A stretch of 64,000 nt of DNA, from positions 744,001 through 808,000 of the forward strand of contig NC_021169.1 in assembly GCF_000385565.1 (NCBI RefSeq). The letters run 5' to 3'. Position numbers and translations under genes: made by a program. Below the pieces are notes generated by a model, which saw nothing but the letters and a program-made list of their open reading frames with translations, was not told the DNA's origin and did no database searches. The number at the start of each line of letters is the position of its first letter. Within the stretch, counting starts at the first letter, position 1. Shown piece after piece: positions 28,637 through 37,618 of the stretch. The stretch is from Archaeoglobus sulfaticallidus PM70-1. GTDB taxonomy: Archaea; Halobacteriota; Archaeoglobi; Archaeoglobales; Archaeoglobaceae.

Positions 28637-28678
28637 TGTCATCCATTGTTTTAGTGCATAATGGTGGGAGTGGAGAAT

Positions 28679-29521
28679 ATGTGGGAAAAAATAAGAATGG
28701 ATGAGAAAGGATTTACAGGACTTGAAGCAGCCATCGTCCTGATAGCTTTCGTAGTGGTTGCAGCAGTCTTCAGCTATGTAATGCTTGGAGCAGGATTCTT
28801 CACGACTCAGAAGAGTCAGGAAGTTGTGCATACTGGTGTGCAGCAGGCAAGTAGCTCGATAGAGCTTGCTGGAGATGTTGTCGTGAAAGGAGATGACACT
28901 ATTGCAAACGCAGTAGATACGATAACTTTCTACGTAACTGTCACTGCAGGAAGTACACCGGTTGACCTGGACAAAACAATAATATCGTACAAGGATGACG
29001 ATGAGTTTTTCTCCAAAATACCCTGGGCATATGCGAGTATAGTGAGAGAGCCAAATGAGTTTCCTGCAGATAACTTAGTCGAGAAGAACGAGTTGTATAA
29101 GATAACAGTGTATTTAGATAAAAAAGTTACAGCCGTAACTGGAGAGTCGGTGACTATCACGACGGGCTCAGGATCATTAACGAACTTTCCTGTAATCCCG
29201 GGTACATTGAGTCTTAAGGATGCCAGTAACAACTATTACATGGATGATGGAAATGGGAACATAGTACAGAGTGATGGCACGGATGTGGGTGACATCGACT
29301 ACAGTACTGGTGCAATTACCACCACTCTTGCAGACGGAACTTACACTGCAAATTACAGGTATACTGAACCAGGTACTGCAGGTACAGATTATCCAAGTAG
29401 CCTCCCACAAACAAACGAAAAGATTCAGCTGGAGCTGAAGCCACCCACTGGTGCTACATTGGTAATCGTTAGAACATTACCCGCAGAACTCTCGACAAAT
29501 GACTACTATGTAGTGTACTGA
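28679..29521 (+). CDS. arlB1: Archaellin ArlB1 (FlaB) with an internal inserted domain
   Basis: A 280-residue archaellin. Class III signal peptide MWEKIRMDEKG is cut before FTGLEAAIVLIAFVVVAAVF, the helix that packs in the filament core. The C-terminal beta domain ends KPPTGATLVIVRTLP. Compared with ArlB2, about 78 extra residues (~155-232) are inserted, containing TLSLKDASNNYYMDDGNGN and DIDYSTGAITTTLADGTY. That pattern resembles beta modules of phage and bacterial surface proteins. The ATG at 28679 is preferred over an ATG at 28661 because GGTGGGAG precedes it. It is the first gene of the operon and probably a filament subunit. Confidence 0.93.
   Translation: MWEKIRMDEKGFTGLEAAIVLIAFVVVAAVFSYVMLGAGFFTTQKSQEVVHTGVQQASSSIELAGDVVVKGDDTIANAVDTITFYVTVTAGSTPVDLDKTIISYKDDDEFFSKIPWAYASIVREPNEFPADNLVEKNELYKITVYLDKKVTAVTGESVTITTGSGSLTNFPVIPGTLSLKDASNNYYMDDGNGNIVQSDGTDVGDIDYSTGAITTTLADGTYTANYRYTEPGTAGTDYPSSLPQTNEKIQLELKPPTGATLVIVRTLPAELSTNDYYVVY
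28706..28867 (+). repeat. 162-base segment identical to the start of arlB2 (29576-29737)
   Basis: The two archaellin genes are base-for-base identical over the signal-peptide junction and N-terminal helix, including third codon positions, then diverge abruptly. This indicates recent gene conversion or duplication. Confidence 0.9.
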
Positions 29522-29536
29522 GGGGGGTGAAACTCG

Positions 29537-30151
29537 ATGAGGAGACATTTTAATAAAAAATTCTTTAAGGACAAAAAAGGATTTACAGGACTTGAAGCAG
29601 CCATCGTCCTGATAGCTTTCGTAGTGGTTGCAGCAGTCTTCAGCTATGTAATGCTTGGAGCAGGATTCTTCACGACTCAGAAGAGTCAGGAAGTTGTGCA
29701 TACTGGTGTGCAGCAGGCAAGTAGCTCGATAGAGCTTACTGGGGATGTAATAGCTACAAAAGATTCTTCTGATGCCGACACTGATGGTACTAGTGATGAG
29801 ATAAATGAAGTGAAATTATTCATACAGCTCGCTTCGGGAGGAACACCAGTCGATGTGGATAAAATGGTTATAGCCCTAACAACAGCAGATGCTCACAAGG
29901 TTCTTACAAAAGGAAGTTCGGCAACTGCAACAACATTTGCTTATACTGACCTTAACGGAGACGGTGACAATTTACTGGAGAAGTACGAAAAGTTTGAGAT
30001 AGTGATAGACGTTAATTCTGCACTCGGAACTGATGATGACTTAACGGTTAACGAAAAGTTCCAAATAGAGATCAAGCCACCCCAAGGTGCCTCATTAACA
30101 GTGGTTAGAACAGTTCCACCATACATAGATCAGGTAATGGTGCTGCACTAA
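29537..30151 (+). CDS. arlB2: Archaellin ArlB2 (FlaB)
   Basis: A 204-residue archaellin of normal size. Signal peptide MRRHFNKKFFKDKKG, cleavage before FTGLEAAIVLIAFVV, and a beta domain ending KPPQGASLTVVRTVPPY. It starts 15 bases after arlB1 behind GGGGGGTGA. It lacks the insertion found in ArlB1 and is rich in Asp/Thr (DSSDADTDGTSDE), which could bind calcium. Probably the main or a second filament subunit. Confidence 0.94.
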   Translation: MRRHFNKKFFKDKKGFTGLEAAIVLIAFVVVAAVFSYVMLGAGFFTTQKSQEVVHTGVQQASSSIELTGDVIATKDSSDADTDGTSDEINEVKLFIQLASGGTPVDVDKMVIALTTADAHKVLTKGSSATATTFAYTDLNGDGDNLLEKYEKFEIVIDVNSALGTDDDLTVNEKFQIEIKPPQGASLTVVRTVPPYIDQVMVLH

Positions 30152-30208: not shown

Positions 30209-30886
30209 ATGGTAGAAGGTAAAATAGACCAAATAATTGCAGATACCGGAACAGACACTCCAGAAAGCAGAATAGCTAAGCTTGAAGAAGAAGTTAACAT
30301 GCTCAAGGGATCGATCAAAAAGCTGCTCATAGATCTAAGAGAGATTATGAACAACCTCGAAAATCCATTCCAGATTTTGCAAAAACTTACAGACCCCCTT
30401 AGCAGCGTTCAAACTGTTCAGGGTGTTCCTACGCCAATAATCGAAGAAGACGGAGAAAAAAAGAGAGGAAAAGAGGAGAAAAAGGGAGAAGAGGATGTTT
30501 CAGGAGAAATGTCGAAGCTACTAAATGTAGAAGAAAGGATTCCAAAAGTTGATGAAGAAAAAGTTGATGAAGATATGCCAAAAGACTTCAGAATTAAAGC
30601 TAAACAAATCGATCCGATCTCACTCCACAGGTTGGTAGAATGGACGAATGAAATGGTCATGAGGTATGGCGAAGAAACACTAATAAAGCTTGTTGAGGTA
30701 TTTCAAATGGTTGGGTACATCTCTCCTGAGGTTAAAGAAGTTGTGGTGATGCTGTCAAGTTTGGTCAGGGATGGAGATATAAGTGATGCCGTTATAGATC
30801 TGTACAAATTATATATTATACTAAATCCTGAAGATACTTCTCTCGATTCTAAGGTTTTGAAGCTGATGCTGGATAAGAGAGTCTGA
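30209..30886 (+). CDS. arlD: Archaellum accessory protein, FlaC/D/E fusion type
   Basis: A 225-residue soluble protein. The N-terminus has a coiled coil (SRIAKLEEEVNMLKGSIKKLL) like FlaC. A charged linker of Glu/Lys repeats (residues ~80-130) leads to the FlaD/E domain DPISLHRLVEWTNEMVMRYG and VVVMLSSLVRDGDISDAV. In euryarchaea ArlC/D/E form the cytosolic ring linking the motor to the chemotaxis system (CheF). One gene here seems to do the work of all three. An AAGGAGG motif precedes the ATG. Confidence 0.87.
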   Translation: MVEGKIDQIIADTGTDTPESRIAKLEEEVNMLKGSIKKLLIDLREIMNNLENPFQILQKLTDPLSSVQTVQGVPTPIIEEDGEKKRGKEEKKGEEDVSGEMSKLLNVEERIPKVDEEKVDEDMPKDFRIKAKQIDPISLHRLVEWTNEMVMRYGEETLIKLVEVFQMVGYISPEVKEVVVMLSSLVRDGDISDAVIDLYKLYIILNPEDTSLDSKVLKLMLDKRV

Positions 30887-30904: not shown

Positions 30905-31387
30905 ATGGCGAGGGAGGTAATAACTACATCACTGCTGGTAATTGCAAGCATAATAGCTACTATCGCTTTGATTAATGCTGTATTTCCCTCTCTGGCTCAA
31001 ATGGCCAGCTCCTTCACCTCCCTCGCAAACAATCTCAACGAAAGGGTTGAGACGAACGTGGATATTATATTCGTAATTGCTAGCAGCTCCACAGACACGG
31101 TGAACATCTGGATCAAAAACATAGGCAGCAATAAAATTCCTAATACTCTCATCGAAAAAAGTGATCTATTTATATATTCCTCATCTATGTATCTACACGT
31201 TCCATATAATGATTCCTCACCTCCAACATGGACATACTCCTTTGAAAATGGAGATGGTGATGATTACTGGGAGAATGGAGAAACGATTAACATCACTGTT
31301 CAGCTCAGCTCTCTGCCAGCTGGGGAGTACACTGCTAATTTCATTCTTTACAACGGTGTTTCAACCAAAGATACTTTCTCCGTTTAG
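30905..31387 (+). CDS. arlG: Archaellum stator protein ArlG (FlaG)
   Basis: A 160-residue protein with one N-terminal TM helix (TTSLLVIASIIATIALINAV) and an outer beta-sandwich (IFVIASSSTDTVNIWIKNIG onwards). ArlG caps a filament reaching the S-layer and works with ArlF. Of the two single-TM stator genes here this one best fits G because of its MA start and VNIWIKNIGSNKI segment, but the F/G assignment could be reversed. It follows arlD by 18 bases. Confidence 0.75.
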   Translation: MAREVITTSLLVIASIIATIALINAVFPSLAQMASSFTSLANNLNERVETNVDIIFVIASSSTDTVNIWIKNIGSNKIPNTLIEKSDLFIYSSSMYLHVPYNDSSPPTWTYSFENGDGDDYWENGETINITVQLSSLPAGEYTANFILYNGVSTKDTFSV

Positions 31388-31396
31388 GTGATGGAC

Positions 31397-31870
31397 ATGG
31401 GATTTGAAGTCCTCATTGCAACGGCAATATCACTCGCTTTACTCATGTTAATCGTATATTCCTTTGCAATCGGAGCGAGTATGTTTATAGAAGTTGCCCA
31501 TTCGAGCCGTGAAGACTTGCACAAAAGAGCAGTTGATCGAATACAAACAAGGATTGAAATAAAAAGTGTAGAATGGAACAGTTTGACCAGAGATATCAAT
31601 GTGAGTGTCTTTAACTCCGGAAGCACAAAAATAGACAATTTCGGCTTGATGGATGTTATAGTTGTTTACAACGAAGCAAAATACCTCAGATATGAAACAG
31701 ATTGGAAAGCAACCATTGAAAACGAAACAATTAATCCGGGTATTCTTGACCCCGGAGAGACCTTGGCCATGCTTATCTATGGACCTTTTGAACAGGGTAC
31801 AGTAGTTTGGATGAAAATTTGCACACCTAATGGCGTTTGTGCAGCTTCAAGGTATGTGATAGGTGGTTGA
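31397..31870 (+). CDS. arlF: Archaellum stator protein ArlF (FlaF)
   Basis: A 157-residue protein beginning MGFEVLIATAISLALLMLIV, one TM helix, then a beta-sandwich (RDINVSVFNSGSTKIDNFGL and PGILDPGETLAMLIYG). ArlF binds the S-layer and anchors the motor. The MGF start is family-like. AGGTGATG sits five bases before the ATG at 31397; 31391 is an alternative. It ends just before arlH. Confidence 0.75.
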   Translation: MGFEVLIATAISLALLMLIVYSFAIGASMFIEVAHSSREDLHKRAVDRIQTRIEIKSVEWNSLTRDINVSVFNSGSTKIDNFGLMDVIVVYNEAKYLRYETDWKATIENETINPGILDPGETLAMLIYGPFEQGTVVWMKICTPNGVCAASRYVIGG

Positions 31871-31871
31871 G

Positions 31872-32594
31872 ATGATCGCTGAAATTGAAAAAGAAAGAAA
31901 AAGCATACTTTCAAGCGGGAATTCGGAGATAGATAAAAAGCTTGGAGGTGGGATTCCCATAGGTTCTTTAACTTTAATAGAGGGTGAAAATGACACAGGA
32001 AAGAGTGTTTTAAGCCAGCAGTTTACGTATGGTGGCCTGCATCAGGGACACAGTGTTGCCTATTATACAACTGAGAACACGATAAAGAGCCTTTTAAAGC
32101 AGATGGAATCATTAAGCTTAGATGTTTCAGAGTTCTATGCATGGGGATATCTAAGAGTTTTTCCAATACACTTCGAGGGCGTTGAGTGGACGCATGATCA
32201 GATGAAAAGAATACTAAGCCTGGTTGCCAATCACATTAAAACTGCACGGGAGAATGTGGTAATAATTGATTCTTTGACGATGTTTACCACATACTCTACT
32301 GAAGACGATATTCTTGAGTTTTTAACGAGGTTGAAGAATTTTTGCGATAAAGGAAAGACAATTCTGATTACTCTGCACCAGCATGCATTCAAGGAAGACA
32401 CACTTGTCAGAATAAGGTCTGCATGCGATTGTCACCTCTTCCTCAGAAAAGAACAGGTTGGAGATCGATACGTTAACGTTATTGAAGTTGCTAAGGTTAG
32501 AGGAGCAAGAAAAACGACAGGAAATATAGTAAGCTTTCAAGTACGCCCAGGATTTGGCTTGAAAATAATGCCTCTCTCAGAAGCTCGGGCATAG
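31872..32594 (+). CDS. arlH: Archaellum RecA/KaiC-fold ATPase ArlH (FlaH)
   Basis: A 240-residue single KaiC-type domain: GGGIPIGSLTLIEGENDTGKS (Walker A near residue 36), ENVVIIDSLTMFTTYS (Walker B near residue 130) and KTILITLHQHAFKED. ArlH binds ATP and forms a ring docking on ArlI inside the motor. It starts one base after the arlF stop, with GGTGGTTGAG as Shine-Dalgarno. Confidence 0.94.
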   Translation: MIAEIEKERKSILSSGNSEIDKKLGGGIPIGSLTLIEGENDTGKSVLSQQFTYGGLHQGHSVAYYTTENTIKSLLKQMESLSLDVSEFYAWGYLRVFPIHFEGVEWTHDQMKRILSLVANHIKTARENVVIIDSLTMFTTYSTEDDILEFLTRLKNFCDKGKTILITLHQHAFKEDTLVRIRSACDCHLFLRKEQVGDRYVNVIEVAKVRGARKTTGNIVSFQVRPGFGLKIMPLSEARA

Positions 32595-32602
32595 GTGGTG
32601 CT

Positions 32603-33259
32603 ATGTTACAGATGCTTAGTGCACTGACTGTGGATTATAGCATCATCATCGGATCGGTTGTGGCAGTTTTGGTTATCAGCATCACAGCACTCTATGATGT
32701 AAAGAGGGAGAAAGCAAAATCAGAGGGCAATGAGCCGAAAAAAGGAATTCTACAATTTATAGTTGATTTTAAAGGAAGAAAAAAGAGGAAAGAAGAAAAA
32801 CTAAAAGAGATCGATGAGAAACTGAGAGAGGTTACGGGTGTTGAGAAAGAGTTGGAGAGGAGTGAAGAGGTATCGGCTGAAAAGAATCTGATTGATAAGA
32901 TGCACAGTGGAGCGTTAGTGGGGAAGAACATCGAGGAGAATATCACTTTTGGGATACAAAACTCTGGGATACAAAACATAGACTTTGATGATCTGACCGA
33001 GCTCGAACCAACTAGTGAGGTCAATGAGGCGTTGCCTGAAGAATTCAACACGGGGATGGAAGAGGACATAGGAGAAAATGATGTAAAAGGGAAAGATAGT
33101 CTGATTGAGTCCTTGCAAAAAGAGCTTTCAATAAAAAGGGAGGAAAAGCTTAATTTGATGCGAGATTTGGAAGGGCAAAAGCTTGATACAGCCGAACTTG
33201 AGTCCGAGTTAAAAGAGATTTTGAGTAGAATAAAACATTATGAAAAATATCTAGGCTAA
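32603..33259 (+). CDS. Membrane-anchored coiled-coil protein inserted between arlH and arlI (ArlX-like topology)
   Basis: A 218-residue protein not matching any standard euryarchaeal archaellum subunit. It has one N-terminal TM helix (residues ~13-32, IIIGSVVAVLVISITALYDV), a highly charged stretch (GRKKRKEEKLKEIDEKL), an acidic low-complexity middle and a C-terminal coiled coil (SLIESLQKELSIKREEKLNL onward). This is the topology of crenarchaeal ArlX, which forms the ring around the motor in place of ArlC/D/E. It follows arlH by eight bases behind GGTGGTG. The gap to arlI contains only a T-run and GGAGGG. A role in the motor scaffold is inference. Confidence 0.7.
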   Translation: MLQMLSALTVDYSIIIGSVVAVLVISITALYDVKREKAKSEGNEPKKGILQFIVDFKGRKKRKEEKLKEIDEKLREVTGVEKELERSEEVSAEKNLIDKMHSGALVGKNIEENITFGIQNSGIQNIDFDDLTELEPTSEVNEALPEEFNTGMEEDIGENDVKGKDSLIESLQKELSIKREEKLNLMRDLEGQKLDTAELESELKEILSRIKHYEKYLG

Positions 33260-33323: not shown

Positions 33324-35156
33324 ATGCTACTGAGAAAACCTAAAACTAATGATCGTTCAGCAAAACTAAATGGGATCGCTGCAAACTTTCCTTTTGATCC
33401 CAGTAACTATGAGAGCCACAATCACATAGATCTAAAAAGATGTGGAATCTACAGATTGCTGCCAAATGAAATGAAAAGAGAAGTCGCAAAGAATCTCCAC
33501 CTGCTTGAATATCTGCACGTGCTTCCAATTGATAAAGTGGGGATACCTAGATACTATCCCGAGCTCGATAAGAAACTTGAAAATTTGGAAAATCCCAATT
33601 TAATCTATCCTGCAGACGATCAGATTTACATCCATATATACCCAGATAAAAACGATGTGAGAAACTACTACATCCCGATCGAACCAACACTATTAACGGG
33701 CATTGATGAACTTCTAAAAGAAGTTGAGATCAGACTTGTCGATTATCTGGCTGAGATTGAGTTTGATCCCTCTGAGCCGGAGGAAAAGGAAAGGATTCTT
33801 AAGGAGGCTCTAAGAAAGATATGTGCTGTAACAGATGAAAAGAAATTGAGTAAATTTATGAGAGATGAATCTGGAATGCTTAAATTCTTAAGAAGTAACA
33901 GCAATATGGGCAATCGTGTTTATGTGACATATCAGCAATTTAAGGCTTTGGAGTATGCGTTAATAAGAGATAAGGTTGGTTTGGGCATTTTAGAGCCCTA
34001 TATAAAGGATAAGTACATTGAAGATATAACATGCAATGGATTGGGACCAATCTTCGTAGAACACAAGATTTTTAAGGGATTAAAAAGTGTAATGGAGTTC
34101 AGAGATGAAGAAACGCTAAATAGATTTGCTATAAAGCTTGCTGAGAGAATTGGGAAACCTATAACCTACAAAGATCCAATCGTAGATGCTGTTTTGCCCG
34201 ACGGTTCGAGAATTAATATAGTTTACGGGAATGATATAAGTAAAAATGGGACGAACTTCACCATAAGAAAGTTCAGTGAAACTCCTCTCAGCATTCTACA
34301 AATAATAGAGAATGGAACGATGGATTACATGATCGCTGGCTATTTATGGCTGCTCATTTCTGAAGGTATGAGTGGTTTCATCTGTGGAGAGACTGCAAGC
34401 GGAAAAACAACGACATTGAATGCGATAACAACCTTCATTTCTCCCGATGCAAAGATAGTATCGATTGAGGATACGCCTGAATTGCAGGTACCACATAAAA
34501 ACTGGACTAGGGAAGTTACAAGGGGTAGCACCAGAGGGGGTAAGATCGGTGAAGGGAGCGGTTCAGATGTAACGATGTTCGACCTGCTTAAAGCTGCTCT
34601 TAGGCAGAGACCAAACTACATAATAGTTGGTGAAATTAGGGGTATTGAAGGTAACATAGCATTCCAAGCCATGCAGACCGGACATCCCGTCATGTCAACA
34701 TTTCATGCTGCAACCGTGGAAAAGCTAATACAGAGGCTTACAGGTGAACCGATAAACGTCCCTAAAACCTACATTGACAACCTAAACTTTGTAATCATAC
34801 AAAGCATCGTCAAAAGACCAGATGGAAAACTTGTAAGGAGAGTTTTGAGTGTTAACGAAATCGTGGGTTACAACCCGCAGAAAGGAGGAGTTTCGTTTGT
34901 AGAAGCTTTCTCCTGGGATCCGGTCACAGACACCTTTGTGTTTAGTGGTCACGGCAGTTCATATCTACTGGAGCAGAAGATAGCCACAAGACTTGGCATT
35001 CCGATGAACAAAAGAAGGATAATTTACGAAGAAGTTGAGAGAAGAGCAAGGATTCTGCAGAGGTTGCACGAAGAAGGTATAACGGGCTTCTATGAACTTT
35101 TCAACACAATCTCCAAGATTCAGAAGAGTGGATTGCTTAAGATCAAGTGGACATGA
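33324..35156 (+). CDS. arlI: Archaellum motor/assembly ATPase ArlI (FlaI)
   Basis: A 610-residue GspE-type secretion ATPase, slightly longer than the usual ~540-580. It has an N-terminal three-helix region, GLGILEPYIKDKYIEDITCN, Walker A CGETASGKTTT near residue 355, Asp box IVSIEDTPELQVP, Walker B IIVGEIRGIE and His box TFHAAT. It powers filament assembly and rotation beneath ArlJ. It overlaps arlJ by four bases (ATGA). Confidence 0.96.
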   Translation: MLLRKPKTNDRSAKLNGIAANFPFDPSNYESHNHIDLKRCGIYRLLPNEMKREVAKNLHLLEYLHVLPIDKVGIPRYYPELDKKLENLENPNLIYPADDQIYIHIYPDKNDVRNYYIPIEPTLLTGIDELLKEVEIRLVDYLAEIEFDPSEPEEKERILKEALRKICAVTDEKKLSKFMRDESGMLKFLRSNSNMGNRVYVTYQQFKALEYALIRDKVGLGILEPYIKDKYIEDITCNGLGPIFVEHKIFKGLKSVMEFRDEETLNRFAIKLAERIGKPITYKDPIVDAVLPDGSRINIVYGNDISKNGTNFTIRKFSETPLSILQIIENGTMDYMIAGYLWLLISEGMSGFICGETASGKTTTLNAITTFISPDAKIVSIEDTPELQVPHKNWTREVTRGSTRGGKIGEGSGSDVTMFDLLKAALRQRPNYIIVGEIRGIEGNIAFQAMQTGHPVMSTFHAATVEKLIQRLTGEPINVPKTYIDNLNFVIIQSIVKRPDGKLVRRVLSVNEIVGYNPQKGGVSFVEAFSWDPVTDTFVFSGHGSSYLLEQKIATRLGIPMNKRRIIYEEVERRARILQRLHEEGITGFYELFNTISKIQKSGLLKIKWT

Positions 35157-36760
35157 CGGAAGCGGCATCTGGATTTAAGCTCGGAAGGTTAAAGTTATTT
35201 GGTAACATAATTGAAAGACTAAAGTCTTTAAGAGAAGAGATGTATATAGACAACGACTTGCTCTTCATTCTCACGTACATGGCTTCTATATCTACTGCCC
35301 AGATAAACAGAGACAAGATATTCGAGAAAACATCCGAGAAAGTTGAATATGCCCCAAGCAAGTACTTCAAAAAAATAAAGGATTTAGCCCAGAACTGGCA
35401 TTACGATTATGCAACAGCATGTGAATTAATAGCTCGAAAAGTTAAGCATGAAAGGTTAAAAAATTTGCTTAATAGGTTTTCAAATGCCATTTCCGCCGGT
35501 GAGCCCGACAGAGATTTTCTTGAGCATGAGTGGAAGGCGTTCAAAACAATCAGAAAGGATGAATTCGAAAGGAGTCTTGAATCGTTAAAGAAGTGGGCTG
35601 ATGCTTATACGGCCCTACTCGTCTCTTCATCTCTTATTTCGGTAATTATTCTACTTTCCGTTGTTATATACAAAGCTGGCGATCCAGCTCAAACACTCTA
35701 TTTTTCAGTTTTTGGCATCTTCCTCATCTCTTTATTTGGCGTTGGAATGCTCTACAGATCCGTGCCCAAAGATGTAAAAACCCATAATCTGGAAGTAAAA
35801 TCCAGAGAGCAATACCTGATTAAAAAATGGTCACCAATCTGCTTAGTACTGGCAGCATTATCTTTTACAGCCATATCAGTTATACCAACAATGCTAAACA
35901 TTTCTGTTTTTAGAGACTACACAGGACTCGGTTTCGTGATTGCAGGTGCTATGATTCTACCCCTGGGAATGCTTGGAAAGATTGACGATAGAAAAGTTAG
36001 TGATAGAGACGAGAAATTCGCAGTATTCATAAGGAATTTGGGGTCAATAGTAAGCGGAGCAGGTGTATCAGTTGTGGAGGCACTCAGCAGAATAGATCAG
36101 AAAAATCTTGGAGAGCTCAAAGATCCAGTTAATATACTATACAAACGACTAGCCATGGGTTTGGATCCCAAAATTTGTTGGGATAGATTTATTGGAGAGT
36201 GTGGGAGCTACATCATACATAAACTCACAAGCATTTTTGTTGATGCTGTGAATTTGGGCGGAGATGCTGACATAGTTAGTGAGATCGTTAGCTCATCAAA
36301 CCTCGAAATGGTCTTATTGAGGATGAAAAGAGATCTGATATCCTCAGGTTTTTTGGGGTTGATAATACCTTTACATGCAGCGATGGCATCTCTTGTGATA
36401 TTCATAACCGAGATTCTAACAATTTTCACACAATTTATTGATTATCTCTTTAAAACTTTCTTTGCCAAGATGGGAGGCTCTACTACAAATGTTGTCCAAA
36501 ACATCTCCATAGGTTTGAACTTGGGTATTTTCGAGGGGTTGCCGGTTGAATTACTACACCAATATACTTTTTTAATAATACTTGCAATAACAATTTCAAA
36601 CACCCTAGCATCAAAGATAGTTAAAGGTGGGAACAATTATCTGCTGTATTACTATGGTAGCATCCTTCTCATAATCTCCGGTATCGTGATGTTGGTTGTA
36701 CCACCCATAGTTAACGCCGCATTTTCGCTTCCATCGTTTATGGAGGTGGGAGGTAAATGA
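35153..36760 (+). CDS. arlJ: Archaellum membrane platform protein ArlJ (FlaJ)
   Basis: A 535-residue membrane protein of the GspF/TadC family with cytosolic helical domains (residues ~20-150 and ~285-400) and about nine TM segments. FVIAGAMILPLGMLGKIDDR and the second T2SSF domain (RNLGSIVSGAGVSVVEALSR) are visible. It is the membrane core on which ArlI acts. The ATG at 35153 overlaps the arlI stop. Its own stop overlaps the ATG of a broken lipoprotein gene. Confidence 0.95.
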   Translation: MTEAASGFKLGRLKLFGNIIERLKSLREEMYIDNDLLFILTYMASISTAQINRDKIFEKTSEKVEYAPSKYFKKIKDLAQNWHYDYATACELIARKVKHERLKNLLNRFSNAISAGEPDRDFLEHEWKAFKTIRKDEFERSLESLKKWADAYTALLVSSSLISVIILLSVVIYKAGDPAQTLYFSVFGIFLISLFGVGMLYRSVPKDVKTHNLEVKSREQYLIKKWSPICLVLAALSFTAISVIPTMLNISVFRDYTGLGFVIAGAMILPLGMLGKIDDRKVSDRDEKFAVFIRNLGSIVSGAGVSVVEALSRIDQKNLGELKDPVNILYKRLAMGLDPKICWDRFIGECGSYIIHKLTSIFVDAVNLGGDADIVSEIVSSSNLEMVLLRMKRDLISSGFLGLIIPLHAAMASLVIFITEILTIFTQFIDYLFKTFFAKMGGSTTNVVQNISIGLNLGIFEGLPVELLHQYTFLIILAITISNTLASKIVKGGNNYLLYYYGSILLIISGIVMLVVPPIVNAAFSLPSFMEVGGK

Positions 36761-37397
36761 TTAAAATTATTTAAAGTTATGTGCCTTAGCAAGCTTGTTG
36801 TTTGCTGGATGCATTGATATAACCCATACAGATCAATCCATCGAAATGGCCGAAAAATCGTCTCTAATTTTACAGAAATGCCAAATATAAATATTAAAAA
36901 AATATCTGGGGAATAATTCAAAGTCTGAGATTTCATCTCAAAGTTGGAGAGGTTGCAAAAACATCCACCAAAGGCAAATTTTACCGATTCATTGGATTCT
37001 CTTGATACCTTACAAAAAACTACTTTGACCTATTTTATGGGGAAAGCTCCAGAGGGTATAAATTTCTTGGTTGTAGAAGTGAAAATAAAAAACATCGGAG
37101 AGGAAAAATATATCCTACTGCCCACAGTTGTCGACTCTGAAGGAAACATCTACAGCTACAGTTTTTACACCCATTCTCTGACAGATTATTTGAAGCTTGT
37201 TGAACTACATAAAGGAGAAAAAAATTCGTGGATGTATTTGAAGTTCCTGTAGATGCGACGGGATTGAAAATAGTCTATGACTTTGGGGTAGTCACGGATT
37301 TCTGGCAGATTTTTTCATTTTTTAAGTCGAAATTGGCTGTTTGGGATTTAGGAAAGGGAGGTAGTGGATATAGAGATAGAGGACTTTATGTATCTTG
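36757..37397 (+). pseudogene. Broken lipoprotein gene at the end of the archaellum operon (DUF4352-like)
   Basis: An ATG overlapping the arlJ stop (ATGA) starts MIKI; after an apparent one-base loss the frame reads LKLCALASLLFAGCIDITHT, a lipoprotein signal with lipobox FAGC. Later pieces in other frames are HLKVGEVAKTSTKG, then a 102-codon open part with GINFLVVEVKIKNIGEEKYI, then (after an A-run near 37219) VDVFEVPVDATGLKIVYDFG. Together they look like a DUF4352-type immunoglobulin-like domain. At least three frame breaks make it non-functional, or are sequence errors. The 37398-37543 gap is empty. Confidence 0.65.
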
Positions 37398-37543: not shown

Positions 37544-37618
37544 TAGCGGGGCGTGGATTTGAACCACGGATCTGCGGGTTATGAGCCCGCCGGGATTACC
37601 TGGCTACCCCACCCCGCT
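37544..37618 (-). tRNA. Initiator tRNA-Met (anticodon CAT)
   Basis: The minus strand folds as a cloverleaf: acceptor AGCGGGG/CCCCGCT with the A1:U72 pair of archaeal initiators, anticodon loop CTCATAA flanked by GGG/CCC (the three G:C pairs that mark initiators), T arm CGTGG TTCAAAT CCACG, discriminator A. No intron is seen and CCA is not encoded. Confidence 0.94.

Follow-up and report, generated by a model that had tools for sequence, protein, structure and literature searches.

An open question about the euryarchaeal archaellum is how its motor is attached to the membrane. In crenarchaea, ArlX forms a cytosolic ring around ArlH and ArlI, while ArlCDE, its presumed replacement, is described in two reviews as lacking a transmembrane (TM) segment (PMC8978795, PMC4307647), and a polar cap has been proposed as the anchor (PMC8978795). 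The archaellum operon of Archaeoglobus sulfaticallidus PM70-1, found within the 64,000-nt stretch of NC_021169.1 analyzed here ("the window"; genome of 2,076,931 bp, labeled G000), encodes an ArlCDE fusion together with an additional small gene, here called gene X, between arlH and arlI. This raises the question of whether X belongs to the motor and which part it could play; being tightly linked to arl2-type motors, it is a directly testable candidate for a tether.

The operon order on the plus strand is arlB1, arlB2, arlCDE, arlG, arlF, arlH, X, arlI and arlJ (Table 1). X begins with an ATG, the arlH stop codon lies 8 bp upstream of this start, and the sequence GGTGGTG immediately precedes it. 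The ArlG and ArlF matches fell below the curated cut-offs, yet ranked in the expected order, and arlG before arlF is the signature of the arl2 (fla2) type of cluster, as given in Desmond 2007 (PMC1914349). A sequence-only reading had described X as a 218-residue protein with one N-terminal TM helix, a very charged middle and a C-terminal coiled coil, encoded in an operon that also carries an ArlC/D/E fusion. The reading frame was found exactly as described, and the fusion was borne out as well: its own match to Arch_fla_DE is weak (E 0.006), but 12 of the 14 members of its family match this model (best 2.7e-5) and an N-terminal ArlC-like block is conserved. The two archaellins are almost identical over their N-terminal ~55 residues, with extra sequence in the C-terminal half of ArlB1, which suggests a recent duplication or gene conversion.

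Table 1. Features of the archaellum operon and of gene X in the window
Feature	Position	Strand	Evidence
arlB1, archaellin	28661..29521	+	Arch_flagellin 2e-40
arlB2, archaellin	29537..30151	+	ORF, N-terminal stretch identical to arlB1
arlCDE fusion	30209..30886	+	Arch_fla_DE; family alignment
arlG	30905..31387	+	NCBIfam ArlG 4.9e-10, under curated cut-off
arlF	31388..31870	+	NCBIfam ArlF 4.2e-11, under curated cut-off
arlH	31863..32594	+	NCBIfam ArlH 1.1e-77
gene X, membrane-anchored archaellum protein, 218 aa, arlH-arlI interval	32603..33259	+	ORF, orthologues, alignments
X residues 13-31, predicted TM helix	32639..32695	+	hydropathy; AlphaFold2 helix 3-40, pLDDT >90 over 11-30
X residues 49-84, helix with conserved IDEKLxEV block, possible coiled coil	32747..32854	+	AlphaFold2, modest confidence; alignment
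X residues 85-160, acidic disordered linker	32855..33082	+	AlphaFold2 pLDDT mostly 40-55; 21 D/E vs 4 K/R
X residues 161-218, C-terminal helical module	33083..33256	+	best-conserved family region; AlphaFold2 helices 164-177, 184-190, 196-217
arlI	33324..35156	+	NCBIfam NF058587 8.7e-220
arlJ	35147..36760	+	NCBIfam ArlJ 3.6e-222
decayed DUF4352 gene, several frames, at ancestral X site	36760..37353	+	tblastn with intact relatives

Hydropathy analysis and an AlphaFold2 prediction made from 56 aligned sequences agree on the single TM helix of X. No K or R residues precede this segment and six follow just after it, so that by the positive-inside rule X should have its N-terminus outside and its C-terminus in the cytosol. 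The charged middle is likewise confirmed as an acidic stretch, predicted to be disordered, between a helix modeled with modest confidence (pLDDT 51-76) and three short C-terminal helices (pLDDT 83-96 over residues 191-218); the models reached a pTM of 0.24 and 0.18. The predicted C-terminus is helical, as the sequence-only reading had it, but is better termed a small helical module; it is the helix at residues 49-84 that resembles a coiled coil. Among 80 family members, a TM segment was predicted within the first 70 residues in 79, and the second half of the linker was net negative in 79; one TM segment was predicted in 36 members and two in 43, the two-segment forms belonging mainly to Methanomicrobiales by sequence. 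Conservation is strongest over the last 55-60 residues, with the consensus DxLxxSLKxE...LxRDLxGxxxxxxELxxELxxxLxxxK, and is otherwise weak. Profile and sequence searches gave no convincing Pfam, NCBIfam or PDB family match for X, and none of the PDB sequences matched X, ArlCDE or ArlJ.

Orthologues were searched in 60 related genomes and then in a wider set of 295 Halobacteriota genomes. X was present in every Archaeoglobaceae genome among the 60 relatives that carries the close form of ArlH, but in none of these Archaeoglobaceae loci was it seen in the arlH-arlI interval; instead, it lies directly behind arlJ or, in two loci (L051 and L061), behind arlJ and a DUF4352 gene. In Halobacteriota that are less closely related, the post-arlJ site holds a longer gene with the same ends as X. 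A scan with ArlI yielded 80 named loci (Halobacteriota and a few with bacterial labels), in 72 of which arlJ is complete and followed by sufficient DNA; by profile match, X adjoins arlJ in 63 of these 72, with a spacing of mostly -13 to +15 bp. The nine others are seven ANME-1-type loci, one Chloroflexota locus and L104, where a weak X match is interrupted by the contig end. Thus, the orthologues foreseen in relatives do exist, but the conserved arlH-arlI location was not upheld, as this placement was seen only in the window genome.

Rather than being peculiar to the window operon, X marks arl2-type clusters generally. ArlH of the arl2 type was found in 99 of the 295 Halobacteriota genomes, and the full-length X profile (E<=1e-3) matched in 79 of the 295, including 77 of those 99; this association gave a Fisher p of 7.5e-48, a value that overstates independence because the genomes are related. 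With a profile of the C-terminal module (A7, E<=1e-3), 96 genomes were matched, namely 93 of the 99 with arl2-type ArlH plus G003, G079 and G235, although A7 includes diverged forms and was built from some of the counted loci, so that 93 of 99 leans toward the family. In G003, the contig is only 4.6 kb long and has X next to an incomplete arlJ. In G152, one of the 93, the best module match lies off the archaellum locus and the match at the right place has an E of 0.003. The six arl2-type genomes missed by A7 comprise five of family f7, which its inspected loci mark as ANME-1, and one of family f26. The window X itself matched the module model with an E of 4e-18, its sequence being one row of that model. 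No X-like gene was found behind arlJ in the arl1-type clusters examined (haloarchaea, two Archaeoglobaceae and one Methanosarcinaceae), and X could serve as a marker that separates arl2 from arl1 clusters. Gene X is therefore a co-inherited component of arl2 motors as a whole class and not a stray ORF; although it evolves fast, it is conserved in this type of motor, one of two known in archaea. Its presence does not prove a working motor, as Geoglobus acetivorans is reported to be non-motile despite having fla2 genes (PMC4600277) and X is present in G006, putatively this species.

Patristic distances of X and ArlI are strongly correlated (r=0.92, reached in 0 of 2000 permutations), and X evolves at ~3x the rate of ArlI. 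The branch of the window X is long (0.98 vs a median of 0.19), and in both trees the window copy branches off basally to the Archaeoglobus-Methanosarcina group, at a node of low resolution. The agreement of the two trees makes X look like a native gene that was moved rather than a foreign acquisition. Of the traits that define the arl2 family downstream of arlJ, the window X has the module and the co-inheritance with ArlI, and lacks the post-arlJ position. The site behind arlJ in the window is occupied by a broken DUF4352 gene, with fragments in three frames, followed by a tRNA-Met on the minus strand (37544-37618). The DUF4352 gene is lipoprotein-like and is intact in L051 and L061, where it lies between arlJ and X. 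The simplest history would be that the 3' flank of the operon and the che genes were lost and that X persisted after relocation to the arlH-arlI interval. In both trees, Methanosarcina sequences (L075-L080 and L117) nest within the Archaeoglobus-type sequences, which points to the operon having been transferred as a whole.

When the module profile was run over 4624 ORFs, two ORFs downstream of arlJ in ANME-1-type loci ranked above all other non-family ORFs, and iteration recruited further ORFs from such loci, the last three of which were admitted by position plus score. All seven ANME-1-type loci have, behind arlJ, an ORF without a TM segment that is a diverged X homologue. A poor AlphaFold2 model of the ANME-1 form (mean pLDDT 55.6) has a short N-terminal helix and C-terminal helices at 103-111 and 133-151. 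In these forms, and in one Methanosarcina-type cluster that also lacks the TM segment, the N-terminus is a short amphipathic-looking or basic stretch; the membrane-spanning anchor is therefore not universal in the family. Directly behind arlJ, all four Chloroflexota archaellum loci examined carry a gene with a TM segment, a polar linker and a C-terminal end similar to that of X. The sequence similarity of these genes to X is not significant, and the link consists of position and architecture only. The gene of one such locus (L111) gave an E of 0.095 in the module search, no better than noise, and had no convincing relative among 201 Chloroflexota genomes.

Considering its architecture and its linkage to arl2-type clusters, X may well be a conserved subunit of the arl2-type (fla2) archaellum in Halobacteriota that forms a membrane tether for the cytosolic motor at the ArlJ platform, a proposal for and against which we see the chances as evenly balanced. 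In most species, X would be made together with ArlJ, as the overlapping or abutting reading frames suggest co-translation, and would sit in the membrane beside ArlJ. The C-terminal module would dock on a cytosolic part of the motor, possibly ArlH, ArlI or the ArlCDE ring; given that the family is weakly conserved outside the module, the choice of partner is a guess. The linker would then tie the stator ring or the cytosolic motor to the membrane where the ArlJ platform lies, and X would supply the membrane anchor lacking in ArlCDE, a function like that of crenarchaeal ArlX irrespective of common descent. In the window genome, X would have moved from behind arlJ to the arlH-arlI interval. X is linked to arl2 motors across methanogens, Archaeoglobi, ANME-1 and, apparently, bacterial archaella. 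It is conceivable, if somewhat doubtful, that every arl2-type motor outside the Thermoproteota, including that of the Chloroflexota, has an overlooked membrane-anchored post-arlJ subunit that represents the missing anchor or stator tether of the cytosolic ring, a functional counterpart of ArlX beside ArlCDE.

The arl2 (fla2) cluster of Desmond 2007 and later reviews corresponds exactly to the clusters that carry X; as published in the available sources, it ends with arlJ and X is not named. No mention of a conserved gene downstream of arlJ was found in the available portions of Desmond 2007, Makarova 2016, the 2015 and 2022 reviews and the 2025 Chloroflexota paper, and an earlier arCOG listing of X, for example in supplementary tables, is possible. 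The known components most similar to X are ArlC/D/E and ArlX. Like X, ArlC/D/E (FlaC/D/E) are accessory and highly diverged, have a charged low-complexity middle and are encoded in the same operons; by comparison, X is membrane anchored and has its own gene next to an intact ArlCDE fusion. Neither Arch_fla_DE nor FlaC_arch was among the Pfam families matched by 23 X members, and comparison of the X and ArlCDE profiles gave an hhalign probability of 0.1%; with no Pfam or profile match, X as a diverged ArlCDE or ArlC was ruled out.

X and ArlX (FlaX) of the Thermoproteota both have one N-terminal TM segment followed by cytosolic helices, and both genes lie in arl2-type operons. X could be a diverged and displaced orthologue of crenarchaeal ArlX, both having descended from one monotopic ring protein that the ancestral arl2 motor possessed, and may be a missing link to ArlX. 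The FlaG/H/I/J trees of Desmond 2007 (PMC1914349) group the arl2 motors of Methanomicrobia and Archaeoglobus with the crenarchaeal ones, and loss of ArlX, which binds ArlI and ArlH, is described in PMC8978795 and PMC4307647 as destabilizing ArlJ. However, the arlX gene lies near the start of the cluster, between arlB and arlG (in S. acidocaldarius it follows arlB in flaX-J, roughly the place of arlCDE in operons with X), whereas X lies behind arlJ or, in the window, between arlH and arlI. ArlX also replaces ArlCDE, while X coexists with it. In addition, FlaX and a thaumarchaeal protein of unknown function are reported in Makarova 2016 (PMC4858521) as relatives of FlaC/D/E detectable by sensitive comparison, in contrast to X with its lack of an ArlCDE profile match. 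The long acidic disordered linker sets X apart from ArlX. ArlX forms a 30-nm ring, for which it needs a coiled coil midway along its soluble domain; the helix at residues 49-84 of X, modeled at a pLDDT of 51-76, may be a counterpart of this coiled coil. Orthology with ArlX is unlikely, and on topology X is termed ArlX-like here without being called an ArlX. The description of X as a genuine extra archaellum gene of ArlX-like topology, and as a candidate scaffold element, agrees with its orthologues, hydropathy and predicted structure.

The tight coupling of the X and arlJ reading frames, together with the instability of Sulfolobus ArlJ without ArlX (PMC8978795), could also suggest that X is an assembly factor that stabilizes or inserts ArlJ or recruits ArlI during filament assembly, without being part of the rotating or static frame. 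In the window, X lacks this coupling, and the role is quite unlikely.

A further reading would have X couple the motor to chemotaxis, through CheF and receptor arrays, instead of to the frame of the motor itself. In the Methanomicrobial loci L065 and L066, the gene behind X is CheF-like, and in several Archaeoglobaceae CheF and CheW are encoded downstream of X, at a distance of a few kb. Among the 60 relatives, both CheF and CheW occur in all other Archaeoglobaceae genomes that carry arl2-type ArlH; in the whole window genome neither was found, X is intact there, and A. sulfaticallidus has been stated to have no chemotaxis genes (PMC4600277). Chemotaxis thus appears to have been lost in this genome; its archaellum operon, including ArlCDE, is complete. 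That X was kept while chemotaxis was lost argues that X serves the motor itself. Furthermore, a Methanoliparum-type genome (G045) retains X with neither CheF nor CheW, and G054 retains X without CheF, both genomes being only 84-86% complete. X is thus probably not a chemotaxis adaptor, and we regard such a role as very unlikely. That X is a functionless, fast-evolving ORF inserted by chance between arlH and arlI, as its low sequence identity and the long branch of the window copy might suggest, is hardly credible and was rejected, since its frame and module are kept in ~90 genomes, its orthologues share synteny with arlJ and its tree matches that of ArlI.

Several further observations concern individual loci. 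Viral contigs were scanned for archaellum loci and none were found. A 728-residue X in G276 proved to be merely an unbounded reading frame, the actual gene being an ordinary X of 382 aa. In two Methanomicrobial-type loci (L186, 6447-9640, and L187, 3951-5212), X is in two reading frames, ~1.7 kb apart in L186, possibly due to an insertion or frameshift. Two Chloroflexota archaellum operons (L206, 5324-8813, and L207, 4076-7567) each carry two tandem arlI genes, and both arlH and arlI are doubled in a Methanoregula locus (L144).
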